64,000 nt of DNA from Nitrospirota bacterium (GTDB taxonomy: Bacteria > Nitrospirota > 9FT-COMBO-42-15 > HDB-SIOI813). Positions 2,468-45,001 of this stretch are shown here, piece after piece (within the stretch, counting starts at the first letter, position 1; every line of letters starts with the position of its first letter). The notes beneath the pieces were generated by a model. It had not been told where the DNA came from. It did not search any database and was given only the letters and a program-made list of their open reading frames with translations. The stretch lies in contig JADZCV010000005.1 of the NCBI GenBank assembly GCA_020851375.1, positions 62,001-126,000 on the forward strand, in the 5' to 3' direction. A program made the translations under genes and the position numbers.

Positions 2468-4252
2468 CTATAGTGGCCATAAGACAGGTATCATCAACAT
2501 TGAAATAATAAAGACAACAATCGTAAGGGGAAGTCCTACTCTTATGAAGTCAAAAAAACGGTATCTTCCAGGGCCATAAATAAGGACAGAGGCTGGTTCA
2601 AGGGGTGTTATAAACGAGCAGGAGGCGGCTATTGCTATGGTGATAGCAAATGTCCTTGGATTTACTGCAAGGTTTTCGGCAGCATGAATGGCAATCGGGA
2701 GGACCAGGAGTGCGGCAGCTACGTTAGACATGGGCTGAGTCAATATCACTGTCAGGATAAAGAAACTGCCTAATAAGGCATAAGGGCCATATCCTGCTGT
2801 AGCATTCGTTATGATGTCTGCAAGGAATTGCGCTGTGCCTGTCTGTACAACAGCAATTCCAAGTGATATCATCCCTCCAATCAGTATAAGGAGATGCCAG
2901 TTTACAGATTTGTATACCTCATCTGCATAGAGGCACTTGCCAAGTACCATTAGTACGGCTCCAGTGAGGAAGGAGACTGATATGGGTACTATACCCGATA
3001 CTCCTGCAATAATGCTGGCAAGGAAGATGATTGTCGCAATGCCTGCCTTATTTGCACGGAACTTCTCAGGGGTAACGTCCCCGATTATGATCAGACGCAG
3101 TACATCTCCAAGTGCATTTATACGGTCTCTTTCTCCCTGCAGCAGAAGAACATCTCCGACACGCAGGTGGACTCTTCCCACTTTCTCCCGAAGGCATATG
3201 CCGTGCCTGTAGAGTGCGATTGCAGACAGTCCGTAAGTATGTCTGAAATTGACGTCTTTCAGGGTCTTTCCTTCAAGAAGTGAATCCGGTGATATTACTG
3301 CCTCTGCCATACGCACATCTCCGGGTTCAAGGTCTTTGCCCGTATGCTTGAATCCGGATTTAATCTCGACCCCATCTGTCTGGCCTGCCTTTGCAAGGTT
3401 TTCGATACTCCCTACAACGAGGAGTGAATCTCCGCTTTCAATGGTAAAATGGTCTCCAGGGATATAAATGTTATGCCCTTTGCGGTAAATGCCCACTATT
3501 GACATGTCATGCATATTGCCAAAGGCCCCCTCAGACACCTTTACTCCTACAAGTGGAGAAGCTGGCAGAATCTTGAGTTCAGAAAGATATTCTCTTATGC
3601 CGTAATCTTCCATTACCTCTTCTTTTTCTCTTGCAGGAAGCATAAAATACCCGATTGTCATGAAAAAGGACAATCCGCCCAGAAAAATGATAAGACCGAT
3701 GGGAGTGAATTCAAACAATGAGAAAGGCGCTAAATTATATGCAGGCAGAGCCTCTGAAACTGCTATATTTGTTGATGTCCCGATCAGTGTGCACATCCCT
3801 CCGAGCATTGATCCGAAGGATAACGGCATCAGTAGTTTTGAAGGATTAATCTTTGCCACCCTGGCAATGCTGACTGATGACGGCAGGAGAATGGCAGTGG
3901 CAGCCACATTGTTTATAAATGATGAGATGATACCGACTGTAATCAGGAAGATACAGAGAAGGCGTATCGGACTTTGTCCGGCCCATCTCAGGATATAGTG
4001 TGCAATCCTGTCTGCAACACCGCTCCTGACCAGCGCCGCAGTCATGATAAGAACGCTTCCAATCATTACAAGGGCCGTATTGCTGAATCCCAGAAATGCC
4101 TGCTCTGGCGAGAGCAGGCCGAAAAAGATCAGAGCGAGAACAACAATTACAGATACGATATCAACAGGCACCACTTCTATAGAAAAGAGGATTATGGCAA
4201 AGAGCATTATCAGCAGGGTTATTACAATATTCATATCAGGCATGGATGGCAT
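2468..4252 (-). CDS. DASS/SLC13-type transporter with two TrkA-C domains
   Basis: This is a membrane carrier of the divalent anion:sodium symporter family; substrates of relatives include sulfate, dicarboxylates and citrate. Hydrophobic helices run at both ends (about 1-205 and 400-594). The family's paired motifs are seen as SSFINNVAATAILLP in the N-terminal half and TQPMSNVAAALLVLP in the C-terminal half. Two soluble TrkA-C (RCK-C) domains lie between them (about 215-290 and 300-380), an arrangement typical of bacterial SLC13 members proposed to sense ligands. The ATG at 4252 is preferred because AGGGG lies about 12 bases upstream; a TTG at 4264 and ATGs at 4243 and 4234 are alternatives. 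The substrate cannot be told from sequence. Confidence 0.88.
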   Translation of the reverse strand: MPSMPDMNIVITLLIMLFAIILFSIEVVPVDIVSVIVVLALIFFGLLSPEQAFLGFSNTALVMIGSVLIMTAALVRSGVADRIAHYILRWAGQSPIRLLCIFLITVGIISSFINNVAATAILLPSSVSIARVAKINPSKLLMPLSFGSMLGGMCTLIGTSTNIAVSEALPAYNLAPFSLFEFTPIGLIIFLGGLSFFMTIGYFMLPAREKEEVMEDYGIREYLSELKILPASPLVGVKVSEGAFGNMHDMSIVGIYRKGHNIYIPGDHFTIESGDSLLVVGSIENLAKAGQTDGVEIKSGFKHTGKDLEPGDVRMAEAVISPDSLLEGKTLKDVNFRHTYGLSAIALYRHGICLREKVGRVHLRVGDVLLLQGERDRINALGDVLRLIIIGDVTPEKFRANKAGIATIIFLASIIAGVSGIVPISVSFLTGAVLMVLGKCLYADEVYKSVNWHLLILIGGMISLGIAVVQTGTAQFLADIITNATAGYGPYALLGSFFILTVILTQPMSNVAAALLVLPIAIHAAENLAVNPRTFAITIAIAASCSFITPLEPASVLIYGPGRYRFFDFIRVGLPLTIVVFIISMLMIPVLWPL

Positions 4253-4294
4253 TATACTTGACAACCCCTGATGTATTCAAGTAAATTAGCATGT

Positions 4295-4421
4295 GACGAA
4301 TTCGTAAAAAGCCCATCTGCGGCGTTGCGCTGCATCCTTCGTCACTGCGGCGTACATAAAGAAGTACGCCTTATTCCTCAGGATTTGCGCGCCTTGCATA
4401 TGGGTCTTTTACGAATTCGTC
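4295..4421. repeat. Palindromic repeat element A (127 bp)
   Basis: The 22-base terminal arms (4295-4316 and 4400-4421) are inverted copies matching at 20 of 22 positions. The centre is a GCGTAC ... GTACGC hairpin at about 4353-4373. Its architecture matches elements B, C and D in this window: long outer arms with an A- or T-rich run, and a GTAC-containing central hairpin. No coding potential is evident. It fills the region between the DASS gene and tRNA-Leu together with element B. Confidence 0.8.
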
Positions 4422-4470
4422 CGTTGCAGGGCGTTCATGAAGAGTTCATGTAATTTTGTCCAACAGATTG

Positions 4471-4598
4471 CGATTGTGTTCAAAAAGGTTCAGATGCAAG
4501 GAAGGAGAGAAAATTTGAGCTGAGGACGTACTGTGTCGTACGTTGAAGCTCAAATTTTCTCTCCTGACGCCGCAGATGGGCCTTTTTCAACACAATCG
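4471..4598. repeat. Palindromic repeat element B (128 bp), abutting tRNA-Leu
   Basis: The outer arms (4471-4497 and 4572-4598) match at 22 of 27 positions as inverted repeats. The inner arms (4504-4521 and 4547-4564) are a perfect 18-base inverted repeat around a CGTAC ... GTACG centre. The element ends one base before the mature 5' end of tRNA-Leu, so the tRNA precursor could carry it as a folded leader if transcription starts upstream. Confidence 0.8.
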
Positions 4599-4599
4599 C

Positions 4600-4682
4600 G
4601 CGAGAGTGGCGGAACTGGCAGACGCACTGGACTTAGGATCCAGCGGGCAACCATGGGGGTTCAACTCCCCCCTCTCGCACCA
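4600..4682 (+). tRNA. tRNA-Leu (anticodon UAG)
   Basis: Class II tRNA of 83 bases including encoded CCA. The acceptor stem GCGAGAG (4600-4606) pairs with CTCTCGC (4672-4678). The anticodon arm is CTGGA-CTTAGGA-TCCAG, with anticodon TAG at 4634-4636. A long variable arm and a GGTTCAACTCC T arm are present. Element B lies directly upstream. Confidence 0.95.
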
Positions 4683-4808
4683 GGGAGAAGAAAGGCTGAA
4701 GGTGATAAGACTGAAGGTGATAAGACTGAAGTCTGATGGTACTAACCCTGATTACCCTCGGTCTTAAGTCTTACTTAATATCTTAGCAAAGAGAGGAAAA
4801 AGAAAGAA

Positions 4809-6047
4809 ATGAAGATTGACATCGAAGAAGTCTCAAAAATCAAACGTATATTCAAGATTGAAGTGCCGTCAGACGTGGTATCAAAGGAATATTCAGAGGC
4901 ATATGACAATGTGCGTAAGAACGCAAAGGTGCCTGGGTTTAGAAAGGGCAAGTTGCCTGCTGCTGTAATAGAACGCAGATTCAAAGATGACGTCGAGTCG
5001 GAAATAATCAAGAAGCTGGTCCCTGAATATTATTTCAAGGCCATCAAAGAAAGCGGCGTTACGCCGGTTGATATGCCGAGTATAGATAATGTGGAGGTAA
5101 AAAAGGGGAGCCCGCTGACATTTACGGCAACGGTAGAGATAAGGCCGAAGATCGGGAGTGTTGATTACGGGGGAATAGAGCTGAAAAAAGAGGAGTCAAC
5201 GGTAACTGATGAAGACGTTGCCGCCGGTATTGAGGAAATAAGGGAGAGGAATGCGCAATTGGAGATTTGCGATGAGGGGCATGCCATTGCCAAAGGGGAT
5301 CATATCAGGGTTGATTATGAGGGATTTGCAGGGGGGAAGCCGGTAAAAGAGCTGAAGAAAGAAGGGGTGGAGTTTCAGACCGGAGCAGAGATGGTGGCTC
5401 CGGAGATTGACAACGGCCTCATCGGTGCACACCCTGGGGAAGAAAGGGAGATTAAGATTCCTGAAGGAGATGTATTGTTTAAGGTCAGGATTACCGAGGT
5501 AAAGAAGAAGGTGTTGCCGGAGATAAATGATGACCTTGCAAAGGATGCAGGTGAGGGTGAGACCCTCGCCGTATTAAAGGAGAAGGTCAGGGAGCGGGTT
5601 AGGGTGCGCAAGGAAGATGAACTCAGGTCTCAGTATAGAAACAGTGTCATAAAGAAGCTCATTGAATTGAATCCTGTAGACTTGCCGCCTTCGCTTGTAG
5701 AAAAAGAGATGAGAAATTTTCTTTCAAGGACAAAGAAATTCATGGGTAAAAAGGATAATTTCGAACCTGATGAAGAAAAGGCGCTTAGAGAGAAATATAC
5801 ATCTCATGCTGAAGAGCTGGTGAAGAGCGGTCTTCTGCTCACAGCAATAGCTGAGATTGAAGGGATTAATGCGACTGATGAGGATGCGGATGCTGAGATA
5901 AAGAGGATGGCAGCGAAAAGTCAGCAGGATGAGGTATTAATAAGGCGTTATATATCATCTGTAGAAGGCGGCATGGATAATATGAAAGATAAGATTCGTG
6001 AGGACAAGGTAATTGCCCATATCCTTGAAAAAGTCAAATGGACATGA
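4809..6047 (+). CDS. tig: Trigger factor, ribosome-associated chaperone
   Basis: Trigger factor binds ribosomal protein L23 and shields nascent chains. The 412-residue protein has the N-terminal ribosome-binding domain with the signature GFRKGKLP near residue 45. A central FKBP-type peptidyl-prolyl isomerase domain follows (about 155-235, motif GDHIRVDYEGFAGG), then the helical C-terminal chaperone arms. Length and order fit the family. It is the first gene of a tig-clpP-clpX block on the plus strand, a very common bacterial arrangement linking folding and degradation. The gap to clpP is 17 bases. Confidence 0.97.
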   Translation: MKIDIEEVSKIKRIFKIEVPSDVVSKEYSEAYDNVRKNAKVPGFRKGKLPAAVIERRFKDDVESEIIKKLVPEYYFKAIKESGVTPVDMPSIDNVEVKKGSPLTFTATVEIRPKIGSVDYGGIELKKEESTVTDEDVAAGIEEIRERNAQLEICDEGHAIAKGDHIRVDYEGFAGGKPVKELKKEGVEFQTGAEMVAPEIDNGLIGAHPGEEREIKIPEGDVLFKVRITEVKKKVLPEINDDLAKDAGEGETLAVLKEKVRERVRVRKEDELRSQYRNSVIKKLIELNPVDLPPSLVEKEMRNFLSRTKKFMGKKDNFEPDEEKALREKYTSHAEELVKSGLLLTAIAEIEGINATDEDADAEIKRMAAKSQQDEVLIRRYISSVEGGMDNMKDKIREDKVIAHILEKVKWT

Positions 6048-6064
6048 ACGGAGGGTAAGACGAT

Positions 6065-6658
6065 ATGTTAGTGCCAATAGTAGTGGAGCAGACGAGCAGG
6101 GGAGAGCGGTCCTATGATATTTATTCAAGGCTCCTCAAGGACAGGATTATCTTTGTTGGTTCAGCAATAGATGACAATGTGTCTAACATAATTATTGCCC
6201 AGCTCCTGTTTCTGGAGGCTGATGATCCTGATAAGGATATTCATCTTTATATAAACAGTCCTGGGGGGGTGGTTACTGCCGGTCTTGCAATCTACGACAC
6301 GATGCAATATATAAAGCCTGATGTCTCAACTATATGCATTGGACAGGCATCAAGTATGGGAGCGCTGCTGCTTGCCGCCGGTGCAAGCGGGAAGAGATAT
6401 GCACTGCCGAATGCAAGGATTATGATTCACCAGCCTATGGGCGGTTTTCAGGGGCAGGCTACAGATATTGAGATCCATGCCAAAGAGATATTGAGGATGA
6501 AAGAATCCCTGAATAATATTCTTGCATTTCACACCGGTCAGTCCCTGGAGCGGATACGGCAGGACACCGATAGGGATTTTTTTATGTCTGGTGATGAAGC
6601 AAAGAATTATGGTATAATCAACGAAGTTATAAAAGAAAGAACGCCAAAGAGGAGTTAA
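6065..6658 (+). CDS. clpP: ATP-dependent Clp protease proteolytic subunit
   Basis: ClpP forms a double heptameric barrel that degrades proteins fed by ClpX. The catalytic triad is visible at Ser97 (in GQASSMGA), His122 (in IMIHQP) and Asp171 (in DTDRDFFM). The 197-residue length is typical, with a short N-terminal part and no long propeptide. It lies 17 bases after tig and 7 bases before clpX, so one transcript is likely. Confidence 0.97.
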
Positions 6659-6665
6659 GAATCTA

Positions 6666-7922
6666 ATGAGTCAAAACAGGACAAAAGAGGGTGATGCACG
6701 CTGTTCATTCTGCGGAAAGAGCAGGAATGAGGTTAGAAAGATTATAGCAGGTCCGACAGTATTTATCTGTAACGAGTGTGTAGACCTTTGCAATGACATT
6801 ATTTCTGAGGAGTGGGAAGAGGATAAGGGGCAGAAGCCGTTAAAACTCCCCAAGCCGTCAGAGATTAAGGACATCCTCGATAATTATGTTGTAGGTCAGG
6901 ACCGGGCAAAGAAAATCCTTTCCGTTGCTGTGCACAATCACTATAAGAGGCTTTTTGCAGATGTGCGGATAATGACCGATGTTGAGCTTCAGAAAGGAAA
7001 TATACTTCTTATAGGTCCATCTGGAACCGGTAAGACCCTGCTGGCCCAGACGCTTGCACGGATACTTGACGTCCCGTTTACTATAGCTGATGCAACCACC
7101 CTGACAGAGGCCGGATATGTTGGGGAGGATGTCGAGAATATCATACTGCGGCTTCTTCAGGCAGCAGACTATGATGTTGAAAGGGCTGAAAGGGGAATTG
7201 TCTATATAGATGAGATAGACAAGATCAGCAGAAAGAGTGAAAATCCTTCAATTACAAGGGATGTATCAGGTGAGGGGGTTCAGCAGGCGCTGTTGAAGAT
7301 TATAGAGGGTACTGTCGCAAGTGTTCCTCCGCAGGGCGGGCGAAAACACCCTCAGCAGGAGTTTGTTCAGGTAGATACCTCGAATATCCTGTTCATATGC
7401 GGCGGCACGTTTGTCGGCCTTGAAGGCATAATTCAGAACAGGCTTGGCAAGTCTTCAATGGGGTTTGGTGCAGACGTAAAAAGCAGGCAGGAGTTGAGGG
7501 CAGGGGAAATACTTCCCCATGCCCAGACAGAGGACTTGCTGAAGATTGGGCTTATCCCTGAATTCATAGGCCGTCTCCCTATTATTGCCACACTTGAAGA
7601 CCTCGACCACAATGCATTAATCAGAGTGCTTACAGAGCCGCGCAATGCCATTATAAGGCAGTACCAGAAATTGTTTGCGCTTGAGAGAGTGACTCTGCGG
7701 TTTACAGACAGCGCAGTAAATGCGATAGCAAAAAAGGCCGTTGCCCGCAAGACCGGAGCGCGCGGATTACGGGCAATTCTGGAAGAAGTCATGCTCGAGC
7801 TTATGTATGACATCCCATCGCAGACAGACATTCATGAGTGCATTGTAAATGAGGATGTAATTACCGGTAAAGCAAAACCAATCCTTATTTATGCAAATGA
7901 CCAGAATATAAAATCTGCATAG
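6666..7922 (+). CDS. clpX: ATP-dependent Clp protease ATP-binding subunit ClpX
   Basis: ClpX is the AAA+ unfoldase partner of ClpP. The 418-residue protein carries the N-terminal zinc-binding domain, with cysteine pairs CSFC and CNEC in the first 45 residues, that recruits substrates and adaptors. The AAA+ core follows, with Walker A GPSGTGKT and Walker [11 protein letters not shown], and a C-terminal small domain with the sensor-2 region KTGARGLRA. It ends the tig-clpP-clpX run; the next gene starts 46 bases later and is unrelated in function. Confidence 0.97.
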
Positions 7923-7968
7923 ACTTCCTCTTCCGGCCAGGTAATTTTTTACAGCAGGAAATAATCAA

Positions 7969-8754
7969 ATGATACCTCTTATCCCGGTCAAAAAGATAAT
8001 GAGCAGGGAGATAGTTGCGGTAGAGGCGCACGAGCCTGTTATTGCCGCGACTAAGATCATGCGTGAGTTAAAGACCGGGAGTGTCCTTGTCAGAAAGAAT
8101 AACAACCTGGTTGGAATAGTCACTGATGTGGACATGACAAGAAAAGTCCTGGCAGGTGGTCTTGATCCTTATACAACACCTGCTGAAAATGTGATGAGTT
8201 CACCCTTCTATTCCATCAACTCAGATGCGTCTGTAGCGAATGCCAATGAGATGATGACTCAAAGTAATATAAGACATCTCGTAGTTGTAGAAGACGGTAC
8301 ACCCGTAGGGGTCATTTCTGCGAGGGATATTCTGGAACCTGTATATGAAGAAGAGGGGGGGAGTATACCCTTCTGGCCCAATCATGCACTTAAGGAGATA
8401 GGCGGGGCATTTCTTATGATTGGCCTGCTTGCTATTATTACCCTTATGTCGCCTGCACCAATGCTTCCAAAGGCTGATCCGCTTGCAACTCCCGAACATA
8501 TCAAGCCTGAATGGTTCTTCCTTGCCGCCTATCAGCTTTTAAAGGTTGCGGATATCCTGAGGTTTTTAGGTGACTGGGCTCCCAAGACAATAGGTGTCGT
8601 GTTTGAGATCGTCTTTATCTTCCTTCTGTACGCAATTCCGTTTATTGACAGGAATCCCGACAGGGCGTACAGGAAAAGACCGGTTGCAATAGCCCTTGGC
8701 ATATTTGTGACACTGTTATTCGCACTTTTTACTGTATGGGGACATATTTCATGA
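7969..8754 (+). CDS. CBS domain pair fused to cytochrome b subunit IV (PetD-like)
   Basis: Residues 1-125 form two CBS domains (motifs VGIVTDVDMTR at about 48-58 and PVGVISARD at 112-120), which in known proteins bind adenine nucleotides and regulate attached domains. Residues 135-261 match the C-terminal part of cytochrome b, equivalent to b6f subunit IV: FWPNHALKEI, a membrane helix at about 144-162, PEWF at 180-183 in place of the quinol-site PEWY motif, and two further helices (about 207-226 and 238-258). No N-terminal haem-binding cytochrome b part is present here; a matching b6-type gene lies at 43301-44050. The stop codon overlaps the start of the following cytochrome c as ATGA. The fusion is read directly from one open frame with no sign of a frameshift. 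Nucleotide control of quinol oxidation is inference. Confidence 0.88.
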   Translation: MIPLIPVKKIMSREIVAVEAHEPVIAATKIMRELKTGSVLVRKNNNLVGIVTDVDMTRKVLAGGLDPYTTPAENVMSSPFYSINSDASVANANEMMTQSNIRHLVVVEDGTPVGVISARDILEPVYEEEGGSIPFWPNHALKEIGGAFLMIGLLAIITLMSPAPMLPKADPLATPEHIKPEWFFLAAYQLLKVADILRFLGDWAPKTIGVVFEIVFIFLLYAIPFIDRNPDRAYRKRPVAIALGIFVTLLFALFTVWGHIS

Positions 8755-9491
8755 TGATGGCCGGAAGGTCAGCAGACAGCGGTGATAAGACGGCCGGGGT
8801 CGTCATTATTTTATCAATTGCTTTCTCTGCTGTTATTTTCTTCAGTAATAAGGTCTGTGCAGATGTACAACCTTTGAATACTGATGAGCATATATCAACA
8901 GGCAGGGAGATATATGACAGGAAAGGCTGTTCAGGTTGTCATAAGATAGCAGGCGCTGGCGGAAACGTTGGGCCGGACCTGACTAATGAGGGAAATGTCC
9001 TTCTGCATACTGTTGAATGGCACAAGAGTCACTTTAAAGACCCATCATCGGTTGTTCCAGGTTCAATGATGCCGAAGATTGATCTCCTTGAAAAGGAGGC
9101 TGAGGCATTGGCTGTGTATTTGACAAGCCTTAAGAGTACGGACTTGCCAAAGGATATTGAGCTCCTGATCAAGACAGCCCATGAAAAGCTTGATGAGGCA
9201 AGAAAGGGCGTTGATGGGATAAAAAAGAGCGGATTTAACGTTGATGCACTGGAAGTGAAATATGTCCAGGGATGGACCCGGCTTGAGACGATCAATAATA
9301 TGATTTATACACACAACCTGGCAGGTGTATCAACGGAGACAGAGGAAGCGATAACTATCGCAAAGGAGATAATGCAGGATGTCCTTTCTTATCAGAAGGA
9401 GCTTGAACACCGCGTAATTGTCTCTATTGTTTTTATAGTAATGATTGTTATAATAGTAGTCCTTGTGTTTTTAAAGGTACTAACTGTATAA
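8751..9491 (+). CDS. Membrane-anchored mono-haem cytochrome c
   Basis: The ATG at 8751 overlaps the upstream stop codon (ATGA) and is preferred to an ATG at 8736. Residues 15-36 are an N-terminal hydrophobic segment acting as signal or anchor. One haem site CSGCH lies at residues 60-64, and a methionine in PGSMMPKID is a likely axial ligand; this region resembles class I cytochrome c. It is followed by about 90 mainly helical residues and a strong C-terminal membrane helix. Translational coupling to the CBS-subunit IV gene suggests it is the electron-accepting cytochrome of the same quinol-oxidising complex, in the place of cytochrome f or c1. That role is inferred. Confidence 0.87.
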   Translation: MMMAGRSADSGDKTAGVVIILSIAFSAVIFFSNKVCADVQPLNTDEHISTGREIYDRKGCSGCHKIAGAGGNVGPDLTNEGNVLLHTVEWHKSHFKDPSSVVPGSMMPKIDLLEKEAEALAVYLTSLKSTDLPKDIELLIKTAHEKLDEARKGVDGIKKSGFNVDALEVKYVQGWTRLETINNMIYTHNLAGVSTETEEAITIAKEIMQDVLSYQKELEHRVIVSIVFIVMIVIIVVLVFLKVLTV

Positions 9492-43300: not shown

Positions 43301-44050
43301 TTATAATGGACCCGATATGCCGAGTCTTCTGACCATCAGAAAATGCATTGCAAGGAGTCCGACCGTAATCCATGGAAGTATTACTACGTGAAAGGCAAAA
43401 AATCTTGTCAGGGCAAGCTGGCCTACCGAATCCCCGCCTTTCAGGAGATAGGTAAAATATTTCCCAAGAACGGGGAATGTTGACGGGATCTCTGCACCGA
43501 TAGTGGTTGCCCAGAATGAAACCTGATTCCATGGCAACAGGTAGCCTGTGAATCCGAAGGCCATTATGAGTAATAACAGGGTAATCCCTATGACCCAGTT
43601 CATGTCCCTCGGGTGTTTATATGCCCCATGAAAGTATATCCGTATCATGTGTACCAGAACTGTTATTACCATTATATTGGCTGCCCAGTGATGAAAGCCC
43701 CGTACAAGCCATCCAAAAGGCACATTGTTTGTTATGTGGACTATGCTGTCATATGCCTGATCAATTGTCGGCCTGTAATACATCAGCAGAAGGATTCCGG
43801 TTATAATATTTGTCAGGAAAAGAAGAAACGTAAAGCCGCCGAAGCAAAACCAGAAATTTACATGTTTGGGTACAGGTTTCTTGAGTATCTTCTGAAGGGC
43901 TGACCTCAAATCAAGCCTGTCGTCAAGTTCCCCGTACAAAAAACCTGTGGAGAGACCAAACCAGTTTATAATCCACCGAAGGTTTACACTGCGTTCAATC
44001 TGGTCCAGCCAGAAACTTCTTTTCTTATTATTACTGCCGTCAGATTTCAT
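43301..44050 (-). CDS. petB: b6-type cytochrome b (N-terminal haem-binding subunit)
   Basis: 249 residues with four membrane helices. The haem b ligands, numbered from the ATG at 44050, are His120/His134 and His221/His236. The 15-residue step in the second pair is the b6 rather than bc1 spacing. The segment HVNFWFCFGG aligns with the b6 cysteine that covalently binds the extra haem ci. It ends in ISGPL exactly as cytochrome b6 does. The quinol-side GYLLPWNQ motif is present. No subunit IV follows; the CBS-fused subunit IV at 7969-8754 is the obvious candidate partner. GGTGA seven bases before ATG 44050 supports this start over a TTG at 44068. Confidence 0.92.
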   Translation of the reverse strand: MKSDGSNNKKRSFWLDQIERSVNLRWIINWFGLSTGFLYGELDDRLDLRSALQKILKKPVPKHVNFWFCFGGFTFLLFLTNIITGILLLMYYRPTIDQAYDSIVHITNNVPFGWLVRGFHHWAANIMVITVLVHMIRIYFHGAYKHPRDMNWVIGITLLLLIMAFGFTGYLLPWNQVSFWATTIGAEIPSTFPVLGKYFTYLLKGGDSVGQLALTRFFAFHVVILPWITVGLLAMHFLMVRRLGISGPL

Positions 44051-44098
44051 CCGAAAATCACCATTCAAATCCCCTTTGATCCTGCTGGTCGGTCTTGT

Positions 44099-44536
44099 TT
44101 ACCCCACTACCACCTTGTCTCCACTGAGCCTTACGTCATAACTTGGCAGCGGGCGGGGAGGGGGGCCTGCCACGACTGCGCCATTAAGGTCGTATGTGCC
44201 TGCGTGACACGGGCATATGAGGCGATTCTGTTCAGGGTGCCAGTTTACAATGCACCCCAGGTGTGTACAGATAAGAGACAGGGCGTAAATCTTATCATTG
44301 CTCCTGACAATGCCGACCGGCTTTCCACCTATTACGACCTTCTTCATGCCACCATCAGGGAGGTCACTGGCAGGGAACGATATCCTGTCTTCACCTGGAG
44401 ATCCCGCTGTTTTTTCCGTGGGCCAGATATACCTTACTCCTGCAAATCCGGACAACACGGCCGCAGTTGCAGCCCACAGGCCTATCAGGATATTAATTGT
44501 TGCAGTTAAGAAATTCCGCCTTGTTACGTCTTCCAT
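44099..44536 (-). CDS. petC: Rieske iron-sulfur protein of a cytochrome bc/b6f complex
   Basis: 145 residues. A twin-arginine signal-anchor (RRNFLTATINILIGLWAA) is followed by the Rieske domain, with 2Fe-2S ligands Cys90 and His92 in CTHLGC and Cys108 and His111 in CPCHAG; Cys95 and Cys110 could form the usual disulfide. It carries electrons from quinol at the Qo site to a c-type cytochrome. It lies between a cytochrome c gene (6 bases upstream) and the b6-type gene (48 bases downstream), so a three-gene operon is likely. Confidence 0.94.
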   Translation of the reverse strand: MEDVTRRNFLTATINILIGLWAATAAVLSGFAGVRYIWPTEKTAGSPGEDRISFPASDLPDGGMKKVVIGGKPVGIVRSNDKIYALSLICTHLGCIVNWHPEQNRLICPCHAGTYDLNGAVVAGPPPRPLPSYDVRLSGDKVVVG

Positions 44537-44542
44537 CGTTTC

Positions 44543-45001
44543 TTAATTTTGTTGCAAGTCCTTCTTATCCTCTCCCTTTGAAAATGTCCTTATGTAATGT
44601 ATGACTGCCCATCTTTGCTCAGGTTTCATAATCTCTTCCCTGGCGAACATCCTTGTTCCATGAACACCCTTGGAAACAGAATAAAAAAGCATTCCATCCG
44701 ACCTCTTTGTCATTATGGATGAATTGGTAAAATCACGGGGCATTGGTTTATACTTGCCGATTATGGCTGCATTTCCTTTACCATCACCGTTGACGCCGTG
44801 ACATACCTCACAATGACCCTTATAAAGCTTTCTTCCTTCCCTTAAGGCGGCAAGATTAAATTGTACCGGGTTCTTCATGTCTTTGTATTCCTGGGGGTAA
44901 TAACCAGGTTCTAAAGTCGGGTCTTCTTCAGCAGCAGGAGAAATTAAAGGAAATAACAGCATCATTACGGATACTATCAGTGCCATCTTCATTAGTTTCA
45001 T
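44543..45001 (-). CDS. Periplasmic mono-haem cytochrome c
   Basis: 152 residues. A cleaved signal peptide (about 1-23, ending SPAAEE) is followed by a class I cytochrome c domain with haem motif CEVCHGVNGDGKG at 64-76. Methionines near IMTKRSDGMLFYSV are axial ligand candidates. It is first in the cytochrome c-Rieske-cytochrome b operon, in the position of the electron acceptor of the complex. A second cytochrome c (8751-9491) sits with the subunit IV fusion, so the complex may have two c-type partners. Confidence 0.9.
   Translation of the reverse strand: MKLMKMALIVSVMMLLFPLISPAAEEDPTLEPGYYPQEYKDMKNPVQFNLAALREGRKLYKGHCEVCHGVNGDGKGNAAIIGKYKPMPRDFTNSSIMTKRSDGMLFYSVSKGVHGTRMFAREEIMKPEQRWAVIHYIRTFSKGEDKKDLQQN

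Follow-up and report, generated by a model that had tools for sequence, protein, structure and literature searches.

A CBS-domain pair fused to a cytochrome b6f-type subunit IV in two classes of Nitrospirota: a candidate nucleotide sensor on a quinol:cytochrome c oxidoreductase

Control of complex III and the cytochrome b6f complex is usually ascribed to redox poise and membrane potential, and not to nucleotides that bind directly to a core subunit. The closest described counterpart of the protein reported here is PetD (PF00032), subunit IV of the cyanobacterial and chloroplast b6f complex, with which it shares three transmembrane helices, the PEWY/PEWF motif, a predicted N-terminus on the n side of the membrane, and a four-helix cytochrome b6 partner in which the haem cn cysteine position is kept. 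However, the N-terminus of PetD is short, whereas the protein encoded in the window (the whole 64,000-nucleotide stretch of Nitrospirota DNA analysed here) has a CBS pair of ~125 residues, a module with which other proteins sense ATP and AMP, ahead of subunit IV. In the QcrC-type proteins of the Bacillota, subunit IV is fused to a C-terminal cytochrome c haem domain on the p side. These are also subunits IV with an extra domain, but the extra domain in our fusion is instead N-terminal, of a sensor type, and predicted to lie on the n side.

The fusion gene occupies positions 7969–8754 of the plus strand and is preceded by a likely Shine-Dalgarno sequence (AGGAAA, 7956–7961). Its translation gave 261 amino acids plus the stop codon with no interruption, and its homologues agree with this extent. 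Within the one polypeptide, Pfam matched both families, namely two CBS domains (E 4.4e-24, above the curated cut-off) and Cytochrom_B_C (PF00032; E 2.9e-16, 60 bits versus a cut-off of 20.7), which bears out the claim of an earlier note on this DNA that a CBS pair and the C-terminal half of cytochrome b share a single open frame. CBS domain 1 (about residues 5–60; 7981–8148) was placed by Pfam, alignment and a structure model, and CBS domain 2 (residues 73–123; 8185–8337) by Pfam and alignment. The linker that follows (residues ~124–133; 8338–8367), defined by alignment, dN/dS and the model, reads EPxYEEEGG in the alignment of the window's class, and leads into the PetD-like half (residues ~134–261; 8368–8751), which was recognised by Pfam, hydropathy and the model. 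Hydropathy indicated three transmembrane helices in this half, with model helices at residues 136–160, 204–226 and 238–260; the PEW[YF] motif is present and the four N-terminal helices of cytochrome b are absent. Translation placed the motif, PEWF, at residues 180–183 (8506–8517), as had been noted earlier, and it corresponds to the PEWY motif of the quinol oxidation site. As no in-frame ATG, GTG or TTG was found between residues 97 and 149, production of a separate subunit IV by re-initiation at the junction is unlikely. A search of the 261 residues for CxxCH found none, and the cytochrome c is encoded by a separate gene.

Among the 61 Nitrospirota genomes of our first search, the full-length fusion was found in all ten genomes of the window's family and in all four of a second family (f2); by class, these are 10/10 examined genomes of the window's class and 4/4 of the f2 class. 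A wider sample of 396 genomes of the phylum yielded the same 14 full-length fusions and no others. Identity to the window's protein was 73–90% in the nine same-family relatives and 46–48% in the four f2 genomes. The named records that carry the fusion are metagenome-assembled genomes (MAGs) from several independent assemblies, many of them from groundwater, and the gene order tig-clpP-clpX-fusion-cytochrome c-U32 peptidase was kept in the relatives with enough flanking sequence. The 14 genomes and this conserved synteny reject an assembly join or frameshift. The earlier note had named two observations that would refute the finding. A join within residues 125–140 is answered by the recurrence of the fusion in independently assembled MAGs, and absence of the fusion from all relatives by its presence in all 14 genomes of the two classes. 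The fusion of a CBS pair with a genuine b6f-type subunit IV is real.

In a scan of a genome collection, the best 80 subunit IV loci (with 377 weaker candidates beyond them) included 11 with CBS domains, all of them from Nitrospirota, and the subunit IV proteins of Schekmanbacteria, Nitrospinota, Chloroflexi, Desulfuromonadales and others among these 80 had no CBS fusion; a spread of the fusion beyond Nitrospirota was thus rejected for these loci. Partial matches into residues 37–113 at loci L048–L065 were also rejected as CBS, there being no in-frame CBS domains at these places.

In Nei-Gojobori comparisons of CBS domain 1, CBS domain 2, the linker and subunit IV, nearly every pair gave a dN far below dS, with synonymous sites often near saturation, and the dN of the linker was 0 in most pairs. 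These comparisons show that purifying selection acts on both halves of the fusion. Between the two classes the subunit IV half is better conserved than the CBS half, and this weaker conservation could reflect a looser role of the CBS pair. The fused subunit IV sequences formed one clade (bootstrap 98, SH-aLRT 96), so that a single origin, in one fusion event, is likely; the CBS halves of the fusions also grouped together, with lower support (94/86).

The two classes differ in where the partner genes lie. In the f2 class, the genes for the Rieske protein, cytochrome b6, the CBS-subunit IV fusion and cytochrome c are contiguous with almost no gaps. The cytochrome c-Rieske-b6 cluster of the window's class stands apart from the fusion, ~35 kb away on the minus strand in the window (43301–45001), and a cluster of this kind with a matching b6 was found in 8/10 genomes of the class, several of which are incomplete. 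The simplest reading is that the gene separated from Rieske-b6 in the window's class after the fusion had formed. Within the window's cluster, cytochrome b6 (43301–44050, from its ATG start, in a reading frame that opens at 44068 with TTG) is followed by the Rieske iron-sulphur protein (44099–44536, recognised by Pfam and by the motif CTHLGC...CPCHAG) and by an adjoining cytochrome c (44543–45001; Pfam and cluster comparison), all on the minus strand. The earlier note had correctly pointed to a b6-type gene at 43301–44050, to which its strand and its Rieske and cytochrome c neighbours are now added. The whole length of the window's b6 aligned with b6 of cyanobacteria (1.7e-66); its H126, H140, H227 and H242 (numbered from the TTG start) aligned with the haem-ligand histidines of Nostoc b6, and the haem cn cysteine position was kept (the Cys of HVNFWFC).

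Directly downstream of the fusion lies a gene for a membrane-anchored cytochrome c (8751–9491, plus strand; CSGCH by Pfam and a C-terminal transmembrane helix by hydropathy), whose start overlaps the stop codon of the fusion as ATGA (8751–8754). The translational coupling proposed in the earlier note therefore has its overlap in the window, but in the relatives the two genes are just neighbours, with overlaps or short gaps. Before its membrane helix this cytochrome c has a conserved helical region, LEVKYxxGWTxLETINNMIYTHNL, for which Pfam returned no credible family of its own; in the f2 operon, the homologous cytochrome c has two or three haem domains, which precede this region. In the window's class, the fusion and its cytochrome c stand directly behind tig-clpP-clpX (4809–9491 in the window; also L034–L040). 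No cytochrome f was present among the genes examined, which matched class I-type cytochrome c and FixO-like proteins instead, and the c-type cytochrome of the fusion's complex would not be cytochrome f, unlike that of the cyanobacterial and chloroplast b6f complex. At the level of sequence, the operon and the catalytic motifs show the fusion to be a predicted member of a Rieske/cytochrome b6-type complex. Its location outside the Rieske-b6 operon in the window's class weighs against the model proposed below.

The cytochrome b6 proteins of the fused lineages are also extended at the N-terminus, which is about 54–61 residues long, versus 35–45 in the unfused f3 family, and ~40 residues longer than that of Nostoc b6. 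A contact between the b6 extension and the CBS pair would fit these lengths. The extension, present in the b6 gene at 43301–44050 (minus strand) and in L180–L191, has a conserved TGxxYGELDxRLD region with no counterpart in unfused f3.

A second Rieske/b operon is present on another contig of the window's genome (L114, G000:C19:6000-20000; 2690–8177, minus strand). It begins with a CBS pair of 131 amino acids and a pyridine-nucleotide-type flavoenzyme of 610 amino acids with Fe-S domains, and continues with a Rieske protein, a b6-like protein, a subunit IV-like protein of 275 amino acids, and a multihaem cytochrome c. In the subunit IV-like protein (L114, 3768–4592, minus strand), KAPWYF replaces PEWF, and Pfam gave no match. 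With a free CBS pair as its first gene, this operon independently ties CBS modules to such complexes. In every readable f1 genome, and also in f3 and f35, the NAD(P)-type operon had the free CBS gene upstream, and none was seen there in f10, f24, f12 or f2; that it is a general part of such operons was thus rejected. Derivation of the fusion from this CBS gene is not supported, as the tree separated the two with moderate support. The anammox operon Kuste4569-4574 and a relative have a similar gene set. These Rieske/cytochrome b complexes include a putative NAD(P) oxidoreductase and have been proposed to form NAD(P)H, in a paper that makes no mention of CBS (PMC12954380). This likeness concerns the second operon, whose complex is distinct from that of the fusion.

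Both CBS domains of the fusion have the G-x-x-[TS]-x-x-D nucleotide-contact positions. G49-I-x-T52-x-x-D55 in domain 1 and S117-A-R-D120 in domain 2 were invariant in the 14 homologues, and G114 was nearly so. We take T52/D55 and S117/D120 to be the positions that contact phosphate and ribose in known CBS pairs; T/S-x-x-D is common in CBS domains and would not by itself tell which ligand binds. The N-terminus, and with it the CBS pair, is predicted to be cytoplasmic, because the loop at residues 227–240 is positively charged (five K/R versus two D/E; positive-inside rule) and because of the homology with PetD. A first structure model, built from 14 sequences, gave a poor membrane half; a second, from 41 sequences, was better (mean pLDDT 81.7, pTM 0.46), with low confidence at residues 126–132. 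The pTM value indicates that each half was well modelled singly and their relative placement was not. The top 50 Foldseek targets were all CBS-containing proteins, and the search therefore speaks for the CBS half and not for the subunit IV half. Its matches included AMP-bound 2rif (E 1.8e-10), AcuB bound to AMP, ADP or ATP, SAM/MTA-bound MJ0100, and the transporter MgtE, and the SAM/MTA-bound pairs 3kpb and 3kpc and zinc-bound 1xkf matched about as well as the AMP-bound pairs. With such mixed ligands, homology does not select the ligand, which could be other than AMP or ATP. Direct sensing of energy charge, the role suggested in the earlier note, is consistent with the invariant contact positions and the predicted cytoplasmic side.

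We put forward the following model, in which the fusion is subunit IV of a b6f-type quinol:cytochrome c oxidoreductase whose turnover is adjusted when the CBS pair binds an adenine nucleotide. Nucleotide binding and turnover control are the most likely role that we infer for the CBS pair, and we give the model as a whole about an even chance. The cytoplasmic N-terminus of subunit IV would be extended by a Bateman module, that is, the CBS pair, and in the dimeric complex, with its two copies of subunit IV, these modules would pair below the membrane and bind adenine nucleotide, most likely AMP, ADP or ATP. Their shape would shift with the energy charge of the cell, and the short linker would relay this movement to transmembrane helix E and to the neighbouring N-terminal extension of b6, so that quinol turnover in the Q cycle would be raised or lowered at the cytoplasmic quinone/haem cn side. 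As to direction, our guess is that high AMP would speed turnover or that high ATP would inhibit it. A respiratory b6f-type complex may, in this way, read the energy state of the cell directly. In a green alga, electron transfer is disrupted when PetD lacks its first five residues, and STT7 kinase activity is blocked when Thr4 of PetD is replaced by a phosphomimic (PMC13287000); the effect of the deletion indicates that this end of subunit IV can influence function. A broader and somewhat doubtful form of the model has an intrinsic sensor of adenylates (or NAD(P)H) throttling the Q cycle of the fusion's complex, and a detachable CBS subunit that may govern the second Rieske/b complex, with the CBS modules dividing cytoplasmic-side electrons between quinone and NAD(P).

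The CBS pair might alternatively be a structural or assembly module, which would hold the dimer together or recruit a cytoplasmic partner such as an NAD(P)H-linked enzyme or a chaperone/protease, and would not regulate turnover. CBS pairs do dimerise, a matching N-terminal extension lies on the same side in the b6 of the fused lineages, the fusion gene is kept behind clpP-clpX in the window's class, and genes for a CBS protein and an NAD(P) oxidoreductase occur together in the second complex of the lineage. However, a pure scaffold would have no need of invariant nucleotide-contact sites, and both sites are invariant across the two classes; we regard this explanation as unlikely. It also seems to us quite unlikely that the CBS pair senses NAD(P)H, S-adenosylmethionine/methylthioadenosine, a cyclic dinucleotide or a metal ion, which would link the complex to redox or one-carbon state and not to energy charge: the comparable matches to SAM/MTA and zinc pairs and the NAD(P)-type flavoenzyme beside the second operon's CBS gene agree with such a ligand, but no sequence feature singles out any of them and adenylates are the commonest ligands of CBS domains. 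That the fusion is neutral or due to chance, or an artefact of assembly or annotation, leaving the CBS part with no role, has nothing in its favour beyond the rarity of the architecture. It is contradicted by the 14 genomes, the single supported clade, the conserved synteny and the low dN/dS of the CBS half, and we consider it highly improbable.

The nearest unfused relatives are the subunits IV of Rieske-b6-subunit IV loci in other Nitrospirota, Nitrospinota, Schekmanbacteria, Chloroflexi and others (L022, L045–L075), which are ~40–55% identical to the fusion over residues 126–261, and in which no inspected reading frame continues into a CBS pair. MgtE, CLC, CNNM/CorC, IMPDH, the gamma subunit of AMPK, and AcuB have the same CBS module, with its fold and nucleotide-contact positions, and to our knowledge none of them is a subunit of a quinol:cytochrome c oxidoreductase. 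We found no description of a CBS domain on a subunit of a bc, b6f or Rieske complex in the open-access literature searched. Both component families are known. With a conserved sensor built into a core subunit, a single purified complex would be enough to test adenylate control of the Q cycle directly, and such a sensor would show how uncultured Nitrospirota of the subsurface may fit their respiration to the supply of energy.
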